Shown here: one piece after another, positions 10,876 through 62,087 of the stretch
Layout of the letters: every line of letters begins with the position of its first letter
Position numbering within the stretch: position 1 is the stretch's first letter
DNA from: Vittaforma corneae ATCC 50505
Taxonomy: Eukaryota; Microsporidia; Nosematidae
DNA: 64,000 nt
Direction of reading: 5' to 3'
NCBI RefSeq assembly: GCF_000231115.1
Contig: NW_006889840.1
Location: forward strand, 49,575-113,574
Position numbers and translations under genes: made by a program
Notes under the pieces: generated by a model
Seen by the model: only the letters and a program-made list of their open reading frames with translations
Told to the model about the DNA's origin: nothing
Database searches by the model: none

Positions 10876-11873
<998 letters not shown>

Positions 11874-12253
11874 GCAAAAGGGTGCTGCAAAAAAATTTAA
11901 ATCAAATTTAAAGACCAATAAAGCTGAAACTAATAAACCAATCAGATTGCAGAGCAGTGAATGGTTTGAGACTGCACATGGGCAGGCTATAGATTGCTAC
12001 TCTATGCCATGAGCCAGTCAGCTTCAAAGGGAAAGTTAAGGCAATCCCAACACCATTTCCTAAAAATTTTAAATAATCAAAGCTTATGAACGGCAGCAAT
12101 AATATATGCAAAATAGATCCTTATCTTCAAAGGCAATCACATACGCCCATTTAGATGCTCCACTAATTTCATGCACAGCTTATAAAAACCGTATGTGATC
12201 AATAAATAACAAATGTGCCCATCTTATTAGACTAGCATATATTATATTTTTAT
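11874..12253. other. Intergenic, about 380 bases, nothing recognised
   Basis: A+T-rich spacer between the GAPDH start and the Dhh1 stop. Short open frames on both strands have no CCC-linked start and no recognisable sequence. Confidence 0.5.
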
Positions 12254-31798: not shown

Positions 31799-32901
31799 AT
31801 GGATCCAAATGAAATAGCAGTGGGAAGTAAAGTGCCAATAATAAGCCCCGTGGGCCAAGAAAACCAAATAAAAGTGCGAAATAATATCCAAGAAACATGA
31901 GGATGGCAGGCTCATGTTTTACATACACTACATAGGACTCAATAGGAGATATGACAAATGGATTGAGAGTTCAGAACTAATTTTGAACAACCCTTCCGAG
32001 ATAGAACTCCCCAGAAAGAAAAAAAAGTTTGAGGAGAAGGCACCACCGACAGAAAATAAACACACAACACCAAGATCTCATTTAGAAGATGAGTTTCGGA
32101 TTAAAAACATAGACAAAATCTGTATCAGAAACTACCTTGTTGATACATGGTATTTTAGTCCATATCCAAAGGATGTTATTAGAAATGGAACTGTCTATCT
32201 GTGCGAATTTTGTCTGTACTACTTTTCAACACAGGAACAGCTCAGTGAACACTGTTTAGGATGTGAGCTAAGACATCCCCCAGGTACAAAAATATATGAA
32301 GAAGGTGAGCTGAGCTTTTTTGAATTAGATGGCTATATACAGAAGAACTACTGTAGAAATCTAGCACTGTTATCCAAGCTTTTTTTGGATCATAAATCCT
32401 TGTACTATGATGTTGATGTATTTATGTTCTATGTTTTATGTCACAAGGATGAATATGGATATCAAATTGTCGGTTATTTTTCCAAAGAAAAGTGTTCAGA
32501 GCAGGGATACAATCTTGCATGTATTTTGACACTGCCATATGAGCAAAGAAAGGGCTATGGCAAGGTCCTTATTGATTTTTCATACATGCTGTCTAAGAAG
32601 GATAAGAAAATTGCAAGTCCTGAAAAGCCTCTAAGTGACCTGGGGCTTCTTTCGTATCGAGCATATTGGCTTGAGGTAATTTTGGAAGAGCTTGTCCAAT
32701 GTAAGGATATAAGTATAAAAGGCACTATCACAGAAGACGTGCATTACTGAGGAGGACATACTCGGAACATTGATTGCAAATAAAATGATAAAGTACTATG
32801 GAGATGACTTGGTGATAGCGATCGACGACAAGCTTCATTCAAAGATGCTTAAAGGCAGATCAAACAAAGTGAGTGAAGCATTTTTGCTAATAAACTATTG
32901 A
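31799..32901 (+). CDS. ESA1: MYST histone acetyltransferase (Esa1-like), two frameshifts
   Basis: Three frames read as one protein. The first (ATG 31799, MDPNEIAVGSKVPI) gives the start of the chromo-barrel, the second from about 31895 (FYIHYIGLNRRYDKWI) its end, and the third (EEDILGTLIANKMIKYYGDD) the C-terminal helix to TGA at 32899-32901. The middle frame holds the C2HC zinc finger (YLCEFCLYYFSTQEQLSEHC), the acetyl-CoA loop NLACILTLPYEQRKGYG with the catalytic-site cysteine, and the catalytic glutamate in SPEKPLSDLGLLSYRAYW. Total about 365 residues against 445 in yeast Esa1. Breaks lie near 31890-31895 and 32738-32745; each is removed by dropping one base. It acetylates histone H4 in NuA4; an ING-type partner is at 50588. 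Confidence 0.85.
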
Positions 32902-32967: not shown

Positions 32968-33435
32968 CTATTTAATTGTGGAGTGTCTTGAATCACAAGA
33001 TTCAATGGTTCTGTCTGATTGATTGTCATCACCATCAATTGTTCCATCACTTTCATCAGTGTTGCTTATGCTCTCATCACATCCAACAATGCTTTCTCTG
33101 TCGGAGCTTTTTTCATACAGCTTGTATAGTTCCGACATGCTCACATATACATTAGTATCGCCTTCTGTCGATAGTTTGTCGGGAATTTCATAGAAATATG
33201 CGCCGTAGAAAAAATATATGGTGATCTCGACAGCCAACAATATTGGCTCTGATTTGAGAATGTATATGAGTGGATTGAATGGAATGTATTGTAAAATGTT
33301 TTTAATAATGGCTGTTAGTAGTCCTAGCATGGTAAGGGCAACAAAAATTAAATTTATAAATTTGATAGGTTGGCACAAAACTATTGTACGACTCTTTTCA
33401 ACAGCTATTTCTATAAAAAGACTAAGAATACCCAT
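32968..33435 (-). CDS. Small membrane protein with acidic Ser/Asp-rich tail, unrecognised
   Basis: The frame is open to 33528 but several ATGs compete (33498, 33465, 33435). I prefer 33435, preceded by CACGCC, which avoids closer packing with the EED start at 33511. From there about 155 residues: hydrophobic segments MGILSLFIEIAV, FINLIFVALTMLGLLTAI and ILLAVEITIYFFYGAYF, then a cytosolic-type tail rich in Ser, Asp and Glu (DESDGTIDGDDNQSDRTIES). No family recognised. It is convergent with the MYST gene, 66 bases away. Confidence 0.5.
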   Translation of the reverse strand: MGILSLFIEIAVEKSRTIVLCQPIKFINLIFVALTMLGLLTAIIKNILQYIPFNPLIYILKSEPILLAVEITIYFFYGAYFYEIPDKLSTEGDTNVYVSMSELYKLYEKSSDRESIVGCDESISNTDESDGTIDGDDNQSDRTIESCDSRHSTIK

Positions 33436-33510
33436 TGGCGTGCTGAAAATCGCCAACAAACCCATCTTCTCTTTGAGCCATACCAAGATTTCTTCCATCC
33501 AGACCCAGAT

Positions 33511-34485
33511 ATGTTCAAAGAATTCCACAGTCTAAAGCTGGAGCATCTAAGATGCCTAAAAGAAGTGGGGATAGTCGCAGCATTTGGATACAGAACATGT
33601 ATTGTTATGAACGATGAGCTGGAGACTCTCTGCAGATTTATAGATGCAAATAAGGATGAAAAGTACTACTGTGGAGAGTTCTTTGAAAATAAAATGAGTA
33701 ACTTCTGCTCTCCAAACAAGTATTTTCTGGTTTTGGGTGGTGAAACAGGCGTGATTAAAATATTAGACATACAAGAAGGCGTGCTGGCAACATTTCTTAC
33801 TGGACACACAGGCGCAGTTTGTGATATTAAAATTCTTGGCAACCATATTGTTAGTAGTGGAGAAGACAGCTCAATAAGAATATGGAGCCTGAGGTCTCTT
33901 AAATGCATCGGTGTTTGCGGTGGGATATTTGGGCATAAAGACCATATTCTATCAATCGACATACTATTCGACCGCTCCATGATTGTTAGTTCGGGAACTG
34001 ACTGCGTGATCAAGCAATGGAAAATTGATGATTTTAAAAAGAGATACTTGAATTATGAGCCATTCACCTCATTCAACAATATCCATTGTTGTCCTATCAG
34101 CAAGATTAAGTACTATGGCAATATGATTGTTTCTCTGTGTAACAACACCATCTCCATGGTTTTCAATAACAGAGAGAAGATTGACAGCAGCCTTAACTTC
34201 AACAAAAACGATCCTATTTTTATCGGGAGCATAGATTTATTTAACAACTGTAAAACGTTTGACATTTTGGGACACATTCTTCTAGGAATGGGCAGCAATG
34301 GAGATGTCTACATTTTCGATTTAAGAAGCATAGCGGAGGAGAGCATGCCATTGCTGATGTCCACAAATGTCAATGCTGCCGAAGATTTTATATTTATGAA
34401 TGACCTTCTGTACATTTCATCTGGCAATGCTATTCACAGAATAAAGCTTGATCTTTCGTATTTCAATGACAAGTATACAGTCTAG
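33511..34485 (+). CDS. EED: EED/ESC-like WD-repeat protein (PRC2 subunit)
   Basis: The 324-residue protein starts at 33511 with CCC six bases upstream. The WD repeats follow EED closely in their linkers: FLVLGGETGVIKILDIQEG (EED: LAVAGSRGIIRIINP), FLTGHTGAVCDIKILG (HYVGHGNAINELKFHP), IVSSGEDSSIRIWSLRSLKC (LLSVSKDHALRLWNI), then CGGIFGHKDHILSIDI (FGGVEGHRDEVLSADY), which is characteristic of EED, and IVSSGTDCVIKQWKIDD. EED scaffolds PRC2 and reads H3K27me3. The N-terminal tail and part of the first blade are missing compared with animal EED (441 residues). The putative catalytic partner is encoded 0.85 kb downstream on the other strand. Confidence 0.72.
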   Translation: MFKEFHSLKLEHLRCLKEVGIVAAFGYRTCIVMNDELETLCRFIDANKDEKYYCGEFFENKMSNFCSPNKYFLVLGGETGVIKILDIQEGVLATFLTGHTGAVCDIKILGNHIVSSGEDSSIRIWSLRSLKCIGVCGGIFGHKDHILSIDILFDRSMIVSSGTDCVIKQWKIDDFKKRYLNYEPFTSFNNIHCCPISKIKYYGNMIVSLCNNTISMVFNNREKIDSSLNFNKNDPIFIGSIDLFNNCKTFDILGHILLGMGSNGDVYIFDLRSIAEESMPLLMSTNVNAAEDFIFMNDLLYISSGNAIHRIKLDLSYFNDKYTV

Positions 34486-34612
34486 GAAAAGAACAAGCTA
34501 TCTATCACTTGGAAGAGATCTTATAAGAGTTCTTCATGCCTTAGCAACATCCCACAGTCCAGAAAGATGCTTATAGAGTGGTTTTGGCTAATGCAACAGC
34601 CGTGATTGGAGT

Positions 34613-35221
34613 CTACCTATTAAATATGTATACTAAAATTCCATACGAGGCGATCTTTGAAATTAGTACCGTTGAGCAGATTTTAAGATGATCCTCGTCA
34701 AAGCATTTGAGTGCACAGACATTTGAGCAGCAATTCAATATTTCCAGTATGGCATAAAATTGAATTTCTTTATACTCCCACACTGCAAAAACTATTTTAA
34801 AAAGATTATAAAATGAGCTAAAGTGGATTGAGTAAAGTAATTTGAAAAACGGAACGCTGCCTAGCAGAGTGTAGAGGAGAAGAGTGTAGAATGCTTGGCT
34901 CGTCACCTGGAAAAGAACGTTGCCAAAATATAAATTCACCTCGAGCTCTTCTATTTGCATTTTTGAAATACTCACGTTCGAAAAGTGCAGCAAAATGTTG
35001 GGAATCAGCTGCCAAATGTAAATACAAACAAACCTGTCCAGAGTAATTTTATGGTTGATTAAATAGTGTCGGAACACTTGGTCTTTCAAAAGCAAACAGT
35101 CGATATGCTTGAATGTGTCATTTGCTTGAGTGTACTTGTCTATCTTTTTACCACAGAATGTACATATGATTTTCTTGTTTTCTGAATCCACGCTCCTTCT
35201 TCTACACTCAACACAAAACAT
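34613..35221 (-). CDS. ARV1: Arv1-like ER membrane protein
   Basis: The 202-residue protein starts at 35221 (MFCVEC), with TCCTC just upstream. The Arv1 homology domain is at the N-terminus: CVEC...CTFC with spacing CxxC-18-CxxC, then KKIDKYTQANDTFKHIDCLL and LKDQVFRHYLIN (Arv1: DKY.E.D......d..l.k..ayRHll.N). Four hydrophobic stretches follow in the rest. Arv1 acts in ER sterol and GPI-intermediate transport. The start decision rests on the first ATG with a CC-rich upstream site. It lies between the EED-like and EZH-like genes but has no evident relation to them. Confidence 0.78.
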   Translation of the reverse strand: MFCVECRRRSVDSENKKIICTFCGKKIDKYTQANDTFKHIDCLLLKDQVFRHYLINHKITLDRFVCIYIWQLIPNILLHFSNVSISKMQIEELEVNLYFGNVLFQVTSQAFYTLLLYTLLGSVPFFKLLYSIHFSSFYNLFKIVFAVWEYKEIQFYAILEILNCCSNVCALKCFDEDHLKICSTVLISKIASYGILVYIFNR

Positions 35222-35332
35222 GAGGATTTGTGAATGTTCATAGTTTATTATCAAAAACAGACTTTGTTGGCAGAGGCAGAAGCGGTAATTTTAACGATTT
35301 CGTTAGCATATCTGATGGAAGCAAGCTGTGGC

Positions 35333-36765
35333 TCAGTCTATAATTCCATGCTTTTTCTTTTGGGTGTCTGTGAATTGATAGTCAAATAAAAACTCCTCGC
35401 CTTTGTATATGTCTCTTAGACTGTAAAATACAATCTTGACATTTCCATGTGAAACAAGTATTTTTGACTTAAGGTTTGCATTGGAAACCGAGTGGTTTAT
35501 AAATCTGCTTTTATTGCCCATGAAAAACGAGTCTATAGAATATAAGCAATCAGAATGCTGAAATACCGCATTGAAAAGATAGGAAAGCTTGTTCATCTCG
35601 TAGAAATTTCCCCTCCTTTCGGCCTCCTTATCGGTTATTAGCTCACCTGTGTACTCCACTACAAAACTGTTCGCTGGAACAAACTCTTCGGCAAAAAGGC
35701 CTAATCCATGCTTGGAGGACTTACAGATTGAAGCTTTGCGTGTAATGTGTTGTGCTACTGGCATGTTTTCACATTCCAGCTTGCCCCGCTTGCTAGGCAT
35801 GTGCAGAAATCAGTGCATTCACGATTCGAGAGGTAGCAAACGCAATTTTCATTGCACTTTTTACAGTCGCAAAATATTACATTTGTACAGTTAGAACATT
35901 GACAGAAAGACTCGCACAAAGTTCCGCTAGTGCTGCAGCAGCACTTGCCATTAGAACATCTGCCAGTATGTCTACACGGCTGATAAAACTGTTTTGGATC
36001 TGTGCAATTGTTTGAAAGCGATATGGTTTTCGTATGAGGAATGTTTGATTGGTGGACAAAAGTGCACGGAATAATCGAGTTATGTCTCAGAGATAAAATT
36101 TTACTCACTACACAGGTTTTTAATGCCAGTTTTTTTATTAAAGGATCCGATGAAATTTCATTAAACAGAATTCGAGGCAGCCGCACGGATTCCCGAGGTT
36201 TTCTAGAACAAATACAGCTGCTAACTTCATTATGCTTTACTATCTTGGGATTGTGCCTGCTGTGAATTCCACATCCAAAAACTAAACAAATTGAGCAAAA
36301 TAGGTCGCCGATGTTCAGCTTTGCTTCTCTATTTTTAATTCTGAGGAAATCTTCTCGGTTTCTTCCAAATTGGCTTCGTATGAAGTTCAATGCCTTTTGT
36401 TCGAAACCTTGCTTTTCAAAAATCCTCAAAAACATCAAGTCGATCATGTCATCCCTGTCGAAAGACTTAGAGCCAAACACAGTGCCCTCGAACCATGTAA
36501 TTGACGAGGGTTGTGTTGTGTGCACTGTTGGAACATATCGTAAGATTGGATCCTCCTTTGTAAATAAGTTTATAGGTGTTACTGCCATGAAATTTGATTT
36601 CGGCGATGATGGAATAAATGGAATCACCGACTTGTCTCTTTTGAATATTGGATAATCTATGCCCATTCGCTGTGTGTTTGTATTTACAAATGCGGCATTG
36701 TCTCTTAATAGGAGCGCTGTCAATTGTGTGTATTTGGCTTTTATCTGTCTGTAATGTTCGTGCAT
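35333..36765 (-). CDS. EZH: E(z)/EZH-like SET-domain histone methyltransferase, one frameshift
   Basis: ATG 36765 follows CCC directly. The N-terminal 160 residues are divergent, followed by the pre-CXC zinc site (FCSICLVFGCGIHSRHNP). The CXC domain follows with 16 or more cysteines: FYQPCRHTGRCSNGKC, LCESFCQCSNC and CDCKKCNENCVCYLSNRECT. The frame then ends at 35755, and the SET domain runs in the next frame from about 35790: GLGLFAEEFVPANSFVVEYTG (Tyr of EYTG), GNKSRFINHSVSNANL (NHS) and GEEFLFDYQF (FDY). Adding one G to the four-G run (35787-35784) joins them as CLASGGKLECENM. Total about 470 residues against 746 in human EZH2. The CXC-SET order is typical of EZH, which trimethylates H3K27 in PRC2. 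Confidence 0.82.
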
Positions 36766-43448: not shown

Positions 43449-43714
43449 TAGTTCTAGAAGGATACTGTGCCAGCATTTCTATAACTACAGCCATTTGTGA
43501 AATCACTTACACGTCTTTAACTCATGAAAAGGCCCTGTTGCTAAGCCAGTACGTTTTGCCTTTGAATACACTTGTTAACTAAGAGCCCAACGGATTTTCA
43601 ACGATTAATATACATCTATGGAAATAAAATGTGTTTTATGAAATATTAATCCATACAATAAGCTCTTTACTGACTGAAGTGCTATTTTGAATCAACTTGT
43701 TTCTTCACCCAAAA

Positions 43715-45811
43715 ATGGAGAATCTAGCAGTTAAAAATTTAGTAAATGCTGTTTCTGAATTCCTAGACAACAGACAAGAGAGCAGGTACAGGCCCATGGA
43801 CATATTGTCATTGAGTATCAACTGCATATCCCACAAGAAGGAGTCCATTTCCCAGTTCAAAGTGATATTGTCCAAAAAATTTGAGGAAGAGCTGGACATA
43901 ATCCAGAAAAGGCTTGATGTGTACAAAAACCTTACCTTCAACATTGATAGCACATCGGATTTTGTTAATATGATTTCACAGGTCTATCAATCATCCGAGA
44001 ACCCTGCCGTTAATTTAGTTGATGATGCTGTTTGTCTTCATGGCACCTGTCTTTTAAGCATAAAGAGTGTTAAGGCCTTCAGAAACATCATAGAATCTAA
44101 TATAAAAGAAATGAAGCTTCTCTCCAACTGTCTTTTGCCTTTGACAGACAAAGTATATTTTCTGGATCAGAAAATTGATTATTTTGAGTATATTTTTAAG
44201 AAAATGCTATTTAAGGTGTTGAAAAGAAACTTAGAAGCTGTAAAGCTACTGTTCAAATACTGTCTACTGATCTGTAAAAGAGTCTCTGATGTGCCTTTGA
44301 TAGAGCCTTTTTTAGATGATCTAAAATATTTATTTAATATTTTAAAGAAATTTGGAATCAAAAAGAATATTTTGAAGAGTTCAAAGCCATTATTGATTGA
44401 GCAGGATATTTCTCTTCTTTCCAGTAATAGAAACGATTTTAATATGGTTTCAAACTATTTTGAATCCCAAAAATGTGTGTTCTCTGTAAAATTTGCAAAA
44501 AGAATTGAAAAAGGTGTGCTTTATACTTTATATTCTGATATGAGCGATGCCTTAATAGCTAAAAACTTAAAATGTCTGGACAGATGCCGTTCAATATACT
44601 CAATATTTCAAAAAGCAGGATTAAAGAGTAAGCTTATGAATGCCTTTTCCCTACTCTTACCCCAGAGATTAAGCGCCAAATTATTTACTAGCCTAGTTGA
44701 CCTGTTTAAGTTAATCGAGGACATTTTAGAAAATTTTAACGATAAAAGCTTTGAAGATTGCTATTTGACATACTTTGTACACATTCTGGAATCACTTCCC
44801 AATTGTGCAGAGATTGCTGACTATGTTGATGACGTTATGAAAAGCAATATTTCTAATGTAGTAAATGACAAGGTTTCTGATTTGATCATTGATATTACAG
44901 GAAAATCCGGAAACCCAGAAACTTTTTTGGCTGAACTACAGAAAAGGCTTGCAATTAGATTGCTAGGTTATAGACGTGGAATTATAAACAGCACATCACC
45001 AACAAACATCGCACAGGCTTTTATTGAGAGAGAGCTGGTGTTTTTAAGGAAATTCAAAAAAATGCACTCAGAAAACATGACAAAGATGATAGGCGATGTG
45101 CAAGCGTTCATAAATCAGAAAAGTGCAAATGCCCACAGCTTTCTACTCATGACTATGTGTAAATGGCCTATGTTTAAAATTGAGGATGTTAACATTTCCC
45201 CAGACTGCCCAATTTCAAAGTATAAATCCGATGTTTTTGATATGTTGAAAGCTGATAGAAAAACAGTAAGTTGGGTTGACACACTGTCCACAGTTTCAAT
45301 CTCTATATTCGATAAAGTCATAACGCTATCGCTTTTTCAATATTCTATCATATTGAAGTTGATTGAAAATGGATCTAAAATAGACAGTGCAGTGTATGAT
45401 CAAATTTTTAATATGAAGCCCAAATTCTGTACATATTACTTAAAAGAAGGTGATTTTTTTGTTTCCAAGACATACAAGCCACAGATTGACTATCTTCTTG
45501 ATGATCTTATTGTTATGCAAAATGATCTATACATTTTAAATCCATTTTTTACGAAATTAAACTATACTGGATTTGAACCTGAGTTCCAGTCGCCAATCTC
45601 GATAGAAAACGACGATGCTTCATACAATCACCAGGCATACAATGAAGCAAGGATTGCAAGACTCTTGAAAAGACACAAAAGCAGCAGTTTGACTGATTTA
45701 TTATCAAATATTGATGATGTCACAGAAGACGATCTTAGAAAGGCTCTTGCAAGGCTTCAAGAGAAAGAAGTAGTGGAAGTTGTAGGTCAGAATGTCAAGT
45801 ATTGTCCATGA
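43715..45811 (+). CDS. Cullin-family scaffold protein
   Basis: The 698-residue protein starts at 43715 after CCCAAAA. The N-terminal part is built of cullin-repeat helices (LKYLFNILKKFGI). The cullin-homology core begins about residue 410: FLAELQKRLAIRLLGYRRGI, FLRKFKKMHSENMTKMIGDVQAF (compare KLE.MfkD...S) and MCKWPMFKIEDVNI (WP motif). The winged-helix end ARIARLLKRHKSSSLTDLL resembles the NEDD8 site segment (IVRIMKxRK), with lysine in RLLK. This suggests a cullin 1/3/4-type ubiquitin ligase scaffold, though an APC2-like protein remains possible. Gene intact. Confidence 0.78.
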   Translation: MENLAVKNLVNAVSEFLDNRQESRYRPMDILSLSINCISHKKESISQFKVILSKKFEEELDIIQKRLDVYKNLTFNIDSTSDFVNMISQVYQSSENPAVNLVDDAVCLHGTCLLSIKSVKAFRNIIESNIKEMKLLSNCLLPLTDKVYFLDQKIDYFEYIFKKMLFKVLKRNLEAVKLLFKYCLLICKRVSDVPLIEPFLDDLKYLFNILKKFGIKKNILKSSKPLLIEQDISLLSSNRNDFNMVSNYFESQKCVFSVKFAKRIEKGVLYTLYSDMSDALIAKNLKCLDRCRSIYSIFQKAGLKSKLMNAFSLLLPQRLSAKLFTSLVDLFKLIEDILENFNDKSFEDCYLTYFVHILESLPNCAEIADYVDDVMKSNISNVVNDKVSDLIIDITGKSGNPETFLAELQKRLAIRLLGYRRGIINSTSPTNIAQAFIERELVFLRKFKKMHSENMTKMIGDVQAFINQKSANAHSFLLMTMCKWPMFKIEDVNISPDCPISKYKSDVFDMLKADRKTVSWVDTLSTVSISIFDKVITLSLFQYSIILKLIENGSKIDSAVYDQIFNMKPKFCTYYLKEGDFFVSKTYKPQIDYLLDDLIVMQNDLYILNPFFTKLNYTGFEPEFQSPISIENDDASYNHQAYNEARIARLLKRHKSSSLTDLLSNIDDVTEDDLRKALARLQEKEVVEVVGQNVKYCP

Positions 45812-59255: not shown

Positions 59256-59505
59256 ATATTATTTTGTAAATAAATTTATCACTTGTGTTTTAATATCAGA
59301 ACTATTAAATTTTTAGATTTAAAATTATGTAATATGGATAGATTTTATTTGGAAAATTATTGTTTTTATGTCAATAATGCTTGGGCTTTCAATCTTTTTT
59401 TATTATCAAGGTTTTACAGGTTTGGTGCATTCGTCATTCGTTAGGATTAAATAACCTACGTTCTATCTTAGCTCCGTGTTAAAAATAGTGCCTTCTTCTT
59501 GCCCA

Positions 59506-62087
59506 ATGAGAGAGGCTGAGTACCAAAGACTCAAAGATCTGTTTGAGAAGGATGACGGATTTATTCCTACACCAAAGAAGACATATGAAGCAATGTCCCT
59601 TGAATTATCTTCAATTGAGAGTACGATTAGAATATTCTTGTATCTCAGAAGTCTAAAAGTTCAGAATCAGTCAGTTCTGGTGTGCAGTCTTGAAGAGCAA
59701 TACACAACCATTCTTAAAAGCATCCCAAGAAACTTCAAACAATTTTACTCCAACTATGAAAATATAACAGCACAAAATAAAAAAATAGCAATAATATGTG
59801 CAAGAGAAGTTAAAAGAAGTTTATCTAGAACCTCAAAGACAAACCCGACACTCAAAAGTAAAAGAATTAATAAAGAACTAAGCTGTTCGATTAAGAAGTT
59901 AACAAGAGAAGAGATCAACAAACAGAAGAAAGAAGAAAAAGAGGAAGAGCAGAAGAGGAGGCGAGAAGAGAGGAAAAGGAGGAATTAAGACAGAAAAGAA
60001 AGTTCAATTATTTAATGAGTCAGACAGAAGCGTTTGCTGGTTTCTTTTTAAATAAGAAAAGAAAGATTGATGATGCGATGGATGATTCTGCGGCAATGAA
60101 GGCAGCACAAGAACAGCTGGCGCATTTGAGAGAATTTGATGAGCAAAATAAAAGTCCTGGATCTGTGAAGCATAGGAATGAAGAGATAGAAGAATATGAA
60201 TATCAATCGGTTCAACAACCTAAAATACTAAAAGCTAGATTGAAGGATCATCAACTTAAGGGTCTGAATTGGCTGGTAAATCTGTATAATCAGGGTATTA
60301 ACGGCATACTAGCAGATGATATGGGATTGGGAAAGACTATTCAGTCCATCTCTCTTTTATGTCATTTGTTTGAGAGTGAAGGTATACACGGTCCTTTTCT
60401 AATCGTAACACCCTCAAGCACCCTTCATAACTGGTCAAAAGAGTTAGAAAGATTTGCACCTGTCCTTAAGGTTTTAAATTACTGGGGTAATATTCAGGAA
60501 AGGAGAGATATGAGAAAGCTCCTTAAGAAATCCAATGTTGTGATCACGTCATACCAAATTGCAGTATCTGATGAGGCTATAATTGGAAAGATCAGATGGC
60601 AATATATGATTTTGGATGAAGCACAGGCAATTAAAAGTATAAATTCTCAGCGATGGAAGATTCTGCTTGGATTCAAATCTCGTAGTAGACTGCTTCTTAC
60701 AGGCACACCCATTCAAAATAATATGCAGGAACTTTGGTCTCTTCTCCATTTTATAATGCCTACTCTTTTTGACTCTCTTTCTGAATTTAGTGAATGGTTT
60801 AGTAAAGATATTGAAAATAAGGATAAAGTTGAAGAGGAGCAGATAAACAAGCTACACACTATTTTAAAGCCATTTATGTTGAGAAGAAATAAAAATGATA
60901 TTAAAGATGAAATTGGTGGTAAGGAAATAATCACAGTTCCTTGTGAAATGAGTATTCGTCAGAAAGTTTTGTATGATGAAATTATTAATAGTAAGCTTGA
61001 TTACGAAAATATTATAATGCAGTTAAAGAAAGTATGCAACCATCCTGACCTTTTTGAGAAGCTTGAGCCCACGGCTTCTTTTTGTATTAGTGCTATTGGT
61101 GAAAATGGCAGCGTAAGTTATAGGTCGCATTTTAAAAGGTATATTTCTGAAAAACTGGCCGAGCCTGTCTGTTTGGGCGTGAACAAGCTGTGTGGCTTCG
61201 ATGCTCCTCCATCGTCTTCCTATTTAATGAGTATCTTCAATGGATCTAGCTACATGCTAAGATTGACCAATAGGATCTTTCAATATAAACTTGACTCTTG
61301 TATTAATTTTCAAGAGAAGCTAATCCAAAAGGACATGACAGTTGATCAGTATTCTGATCTTTATAAAATATATTGTTCAAAGAGAGATGATATGTTGGAT
61401 TATAGGGAGTTTATATTAAACGATATAGTTAGGAGAAGAGAGCAGATTGAAAGTAGCTTAAAAAGATTTAAATTTATTAATGAGAAAATATTGGATAAAC
61501 ATGAATCAACTAACATTGACAAAGAGCCTATTTTTGTGTCTGAAAGTAGAATTGATCGTCAGATCTTTGTTCCACCTTTGAACACTTTTATTTCAGATTC
61601 TGGAAAACTTTTTATGATTGATATTCTGTTAAAAAAATTAAAAGAAGAATGTCATCGAGTTCTAATATATTTTCAAATGACAAAAATGATGGATTTATTT
61701 GAAGAATATTTAGTAAAACGAGAATATAACTATTTAAGATTGGATGGATCATCCAAGATTAGTCAACGTAAAGAGCTTGTTGAGCAATGGCAATCCAACG
61801 AAGATGTATTTATTTTTATATTAAGTACTAGGGCTGGCGGGGTTGGTATCAATCTTACTGCTGCAGATACTGTTATTTTTTATGATAGTGATTGGAATCC
61901 AACTGTTGATCAGCAAGCTATGGATAGAGTTCACAGGCTAGGACAGACGAAAGATGTCACGGTGTACAGGTTAGTTACTCAGAACAGCGTGGAAGAGAAA
62001 GTTATGGAAAGGGCCAATAAGAAAGAGGAAGTACAGAAAATTGTTATCAAGGGAAATGTATTTGAAGGACTATATCTTGACAAATGA
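59506..62087 (+). CDS. INO80: INO80 chromatin-remodelling ATPase, one frameshift
   Basis: ATG 59506 follows CCC. The first frame (to 59988) ends in a Lys/Glu/Arg-rich helix. The second frame contains, just upstream of 60015, ELRQKRKFNYLMSQTEAFAG, which is the DBINO/HSA junction of Ino80 (kkRQ.kLNFLi.QTElysHF), showing one gene broken near 59950-59975. The ATPase follows: NGILADDMGLGKTIQSISLL (motif I), LILDEAQAIK-type DEAQ box, LLTGTPIQNNMQELWSLLHF, VCNHPDLFE. An insertion region comes next, then LDGSSKISQRKELVEQW, STRAGGVGINLTAADTVIFY and DRVHRLGQTKDVTVYRL. It has about 855 residues against 1489 in yeast. It slides and spaces nucleosomes and exchanges H2A.Z. Confidence 0.87.

Follow-up and report, generated by a model that had tools for sequence, protein, structure and literature searches.

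E(z)-like and EED-like genes of Vittaforma corneae: a probable compact PRC2-type histone methyltransferase in a microsporidian

We analysed a window of 64,000 nucleotides from Vittaforma corneae ATCC 50505 (NW_006889840.1, positions 49,575 to 113,574), which is part of contig C7 of an assembly of 2.90 Mb in 35 contigs. The window carries an E(z)/EZH-like gene and an EED-like gene, homologues of the two proteins that form the core of Polycomb repressive complex 2 (PRC2). The features in question, in window coordinates, are:

33511 (ATG) to 34485 (stop), plus strand: EED-like seven-blade WD40 protein, 324 aa, containing GGIFGHKDHILSIDI
36765-35333, minus strand: E(z)/EZH-like gene, present as two overlapping open reading frames (ORFs)
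36765-35755, minus strand: 5' part of the E(z)/EZH-like gene, 336 aa, with the N-terminal region, the conserved DDPILRYVP region, a putative Zn motif and CXC at its end
35800-35333, minus strand: 3' part of the E(z)/EZH-like gene, 155 aa, with the SET domain (Pfam SET, PF00856, E=3.1e-21)
34613-35254, minus strand: ARV1-like membrane protein, between the EED-like and E(z)-like genes (Pfam Arv1, E=1e-9)
31914-32750, plus strand: MYST histone acetyltransferase, a neighbour listed for context, its 5' end lying outside this frame (Pfam MOZ_SAS, E=7e-69; zf-MYST)

The coordinates and the arrangement, with the two genes on opposite strands and ARV1 between them, were correct in the original prediction, which had also supposed a microsporidian host. 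The ARV1-like protein is outside the EZH-EED complex. The microsporidian small-subunit (SSU) rRNA model RF02542 matched two loci, both spanning model positions 1-1311 with ~1150 bits each (5 of 49 candidates scored). Since this model also matches nine of 14 prokaryote controls, it is the full-length match of the ~1260-base SSU that identifies the host as a microsporidian. The named relatives of both proteins are likewise all microsporidian (Glugoides, Pancytospora, Enterospora, Enteropsectra and Nucleospora). In four of the six closest relatives, EZH and EED apparently share a contig (longest contig 13823, 6709, 14561 and 44111); of the remaining two, one has a contig of just 1.7 kb and Glugoides has no EED row listed for its EZH contig.

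A microsporidian E(z)-EED pair does exist here, and most of the naming in the original prediction was right. We consider it likely that this microsporidian has kept a compact histone methyltransferase of the PRC2 type, for which the two genes encode E(z)/EZH as the catalytic subunit and EED as the scaffold. This reading is based on homology and on the folds predicted for both subunits (for EZH, that of P0002, the closest intact relative), on the CXC-SET architecture, on the ARK contexts of histone H3 and on an RBBP4-like gene.

Of the 16 PDB sequences that the 5' part of the minus-strand gene hit at E<=1, 15 were EZH1 or EZH2, and the CXC pre-SET domain was recovered at its end (EZH1, E=1e-6). 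Six full-length relatives were 44-71% identical to this part. The SET part matched EZH2 best among PDB sequences (79 bits versus 67.5 for SUV39H2) and contains the motifs EYTGE, RFINHS and LFDY. Like the six closest relatives, it ends in [KR]HGIxD shortly after SET, with no post-SET cysteines. The model of P0002 aligned (VIA) from residue 168 or 171 on the EZH chains 6c23_K and 7kso_A, and a helix was predicted at its residues 2-30, a candidate for binding EED. Between the N-terminus and CXC, where a Zn motif/SANT region would be expected in EZH, lies a putative Zn motif that resembles the EZH MCSS region; alignment to EZH1 reached just 2.2 and 6.1 bits here. GenBank uses the names EZH2/EZ and EED in Pancytospora, Enteropsectra and Enterospora. 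Together, the EZH-dominated PDB matches, the EZH fold of P0002 and the recovered CXC support the minus-strand gene as an E(z)/EZH homologue with CXC-SET architecture.

The WD protein was 79% identical to its relative P0009, aligned continuously with EED and had EED as its best fold by a clear margin, with no better match outside EED at this level. This identity, like that of the two E(z)-like parts to P0002 (72% and 88%), goes well beyond what chance would give. GenBank annotates one of its relatives as EED. A 186-aa ORF (32968-33528, minus strand) runs antisense to the start of the EED-like gene; it has hydrophobic stretches and no Pfam match at E<=1.

We also searched the genome in six frames for the rest of a silencing pathway. 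In a frame-broken assembly such searches give lower bounds, and the absences of SUZ12, RAWUL, pre-SET and JmjC are weak. PF00856 detected two SET genes (two candidates scored), the E(z)-like gene and a SET1/MLL-like gene with post-SET. Neither pre-SET (PF05033, typical of SUV39/Clr4; E<=1) nor RAWUL (PF16207) matched the genome or any control genome, and JmjC (PF02373) matched only one control, below its cut-off. An RBBP4/p55-like gene is present (C2:160462-160668, E=9.7e-19); RBBP4/p55 serves other complexes too. A further gene (L014 1324-1971; C9:84168-84314) encodes an HP1-like protein that has both a chromo and a chromo-shadow domain, although no SUV39-type enzyme was detected in this genome; F, W and Y are apparently kept at what we take to be the cage positions of the HP1-like chromodomain. 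Canonical H3 (C3:109304) has QSARKST at K9 and KSARKTST at the K27 equivalent (K33 without Met), nearly the same context. A divergent H3-like protein of 135 aa (L006 1471-1878; C3:57310-57654) lacks ARKS at K9 and has a rewritten K27 region, and a third (L007 1483-1986; C5:1746-2102) appears to be of the CENP-A type, its N-terminal tail being long and variable.

Several observations qualify this reading. At E<=1, Pfam gave no CXC match for the window ORF, and PF21509 reached 24 bits in the relative P0048, below its cut-off of 27. A SET-only tree (51 rows) did not resolve EZH, SET1 and the microsporidian group. The p-AU values were 0.408 for grouping with EZH and 0.244 for grouping with SUV39, and owing to the poor resolution we do not use the tree as proof. 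The EZH alignment (A3) held 40 of 46 relative rows, leaving out P0001 and P0064-P0068, the last five of which were included in the tree. In a single-sequence PDB search with the WD protein, designed repeats and FBXW7 came out on top and EED was not among the best 60 of 462. EED rose in a profile ranking and was still not first, as designed repeats, FBXW7, WDR3 and others scored higher; the best Pfam model was the WDR3 propeller, below its cut-off. These sequence-only rankings did not place EED first; the fold comparison settled the identity of the WD protein.

The methyl-lysine cage of EED adds to these points. We take F97, Y148, W364 and Y365 to be its aromatic positions and read them from sequence alignment only (A2: the window protein and 18 of 21 further rows besides its own copy, P0008; P0027-P0029, with E from 2e-13 to 2e-8, were omitted). 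With three MAFFT modes, W364 corresponded in all 19 sequences to F, likewise an aromatic residue, Y365 to Y, F or W in none of the 19, and Y148 to Y in 10 of the 19; F97 was without an aromatic counterpart. The HMMER alignment instead had a gap at W364-Y365. Whichever alignment is used, the W364-Y365 pair is not retained, and the aromatic cage as judged from these alignments is not conserved. Lastly, the SUZ12 VEFS box (PF09733) had no genome match at E<=10, and no control genome matched either. Of the PRC2 originally predicted for this reduced genome, the E(z) and EED identities are supported, whereas an assembled complex, H3K27me3 and facultative heterochromatin would be its hypothetical part, with SUZ12 undetected and the cage of EED not conserved.

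In the complex that we propose, EZH would dock on EED through a long helix at its N-terminus, and the SET domain would methylate H3K27 and possibly H3K9 too. Since the EED cage is not conserved, the mark may be read by the HP1-like chromodomain protein rather than by EED. Repressive histone methylation in this genome would then depend mainly or entirely on this complex, with subtelomeric or rRNA chromatin among its possible targets. A Polycomb writer as the sole repressive methyltransferase, read by HP1, is a plausible hypothesis.

A different reading, possible though doubtful, takes the E(z)-derived enzyme as a general heterochromatin writer on both H3K9 and H3K27 that has replaced a lost SUV39/Clr4 and is read by HP1. 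The model would be the ciliate Ezl1 complex, in which an E(z) homologue writes heterochromatin and K9 as well as K27 activity has been reported (reviewed in PMC8788455). The two SET genes, the missing pre-SET match, the presence of an HP1-like protein and the near identity of the K9 and K27 contexts all agree with it. However, the absence of SUV39 comes from six-frame Pfam searches of a frame-broken assembly with a pre-SET model that matched no control, and the substrates, including a dual activity such as that of Ezl1, are hypothetical for the microsporidian enzyme. For this clade, and perhaps for Encephalitozoon, we would only tentatively suggest that a compact E(z)-EED is the one heterochromatin-type methyltransferase in place of SUV39/Clr4, with reading by EED lost and taken over by HP1.

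The E(z)-like gene might also be a recent pseudogene of a system that is dying in this species, which we regard as unlikely. A single frame break between CXC and SET would fit such decay, but the 5' ORF aligns with P0002 up to residue 325 and the 3' ORF from residue 324, and both jointly span all of P0002 without a gap (identity 72% over the 5' part and 88% over the SET part). As these alignments abut, the two ORFs read as one gene with one frame break and nothing missing. The branch of the SET part in the SET tree is short (0.037). Three more conserved genes in the window appear broken likewise: GAPDH (11166-11918) ends at position 90 of the 158 in its C-terminal domain and seems to continue in another frame, as does MYST, whose chromo-barrel starts only at profile position 33, and in the INO80-like gene (59476-62087) DBINO and SNF2 lie in different frames. 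These breaks were noticed among 36 window ORFs scanned with Pfam and not in a systematic survey, but they make assembly indels the simplest reading. The break in the E(z)-like gene is thus most likely a sequencing or assembly indel. Programmed frameshifting was set aside, since the six closest relatives have the CXC and SET parts in one protein and the other three genes look broken as well.

Somewhat less likely still, the homologues could have left histone silencing, for example as a non-histone methyltransferase with a WD scaffold; the lost cage positions and the undetected SUZ12 would be in line with this, but the EZH architecture has been kept, and so have the genes for RBBP4-like and HP1-like proteins and for an H3 with the K27 context. 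That the WD protein is another WD40 protein that happens to adjoin the EZH gene is very improbable, as its higher total sequence scores with non-EED propellers and its WDR3 Pfam match stand against the fold ranking, the continuous EED alignment and the GenBank name of its relative.

The compact PRC2-type methyltransferase that we favour has the same CXC-SET subunit and EED propeller as the PRC2 core of human and Chaetomium (EZH2-EED), which provides the closest solved structures of both proteins. It differs in size, with an EZH of 468-477 aa in the six closest microsporidian relatives versus 746, in an EED without the W364-Y365 pair or a fixed Y148, and in the undetected SUZ12. We take Ezh2 to be a member of the Cryptococcus neoformans PRC2 beside Eed1, Bnd1 and Ccc1. 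This fungal complex resembles the one proposed here in having no obvious SUZ12 and a chromodomain reader, but Cryptococcus also has the H3K9 enzyme Clr4 (PMC8788455), of which our genome searches found no counterpart. More recent work argues that Bnd1 is a diverged SUZ12, and in various species SUZ12 has diverged strongly (PMC10638273); one may therefore be hidden in this genome as well.

For Encephalitozoon, a histone methyltransferase named 'Clr4/EZH2' appears together with HP1 and INO80 in a published list, whose authors took it for the H3K9 enzyme Clr4 and argued for H3K9me (PMC10158259). By locus tag, it is 170-190 tag units away from INO80 in each of three species (PMC10158259, Table 1), and EZH and the INO80-like gene are ~23 kb apart here. 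This proximity suggests that 'Clr4/EZH2' and our E(z)-like gene may be the same gene. Between EZH and INO80, Encephalitozoon has a gene that the table lists as a cullin; in the corresponding interval of the window, the 704-aa ORF at 43697-45811, considered as a divergent cullin, had no Pfam cullin match at E<=10, no other Pfam relative and nothing useful in the PDB.

The original prediction left open whether the system had been described, and in part it has. Several E(z)-type genes are known from Basidiomycota, Chytridiomycetes and Microsporidia, while several Microsporidia are without any SET-domain gene (PMC9692433), and GenBank already holds the EED and EZH2/EZ names. PRC2 has been surveyed across eukaryotes (PMC10638273, PMC10538959, PMC8788455, PMC9018016). 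In the portions of these surveys covered here, the sole passage naming microsporidia concerns SNF2 counts (PMC10538959), and no mention was found in the other three. Apart from E(z) and 'Clr4/EZH2', our searches of the open-licence literature gave no published description of microsporidian EED or PRC2.

Microsporidia have some of the smallest nuclear genomes and have kept few regulators. That EZH, EED and proteins like RBBP4 and HP1 are still encoded suggests an importance of silencing for these parasites. Were E(z) the sole repressive writer, this would be a test of the minimal size of a Polycomb system and of a possible merger of the K9 and K27 pathways; with HP1 as the reader, a Polycomb writer would be coupled to a heterochromatin-protein reader. 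Microsporidian heterochromatin at subtelomeres and rRNA genes, for which a basis in H3K9me and Clr4 has been inferred to date (PMC10158259), may then be Polycomb-based. Should E(z)-EED have replaced SUV39/Clr4, the 'Clr4/H3K9me' view of heterochromatin published for Microsporidia would need rewriting.
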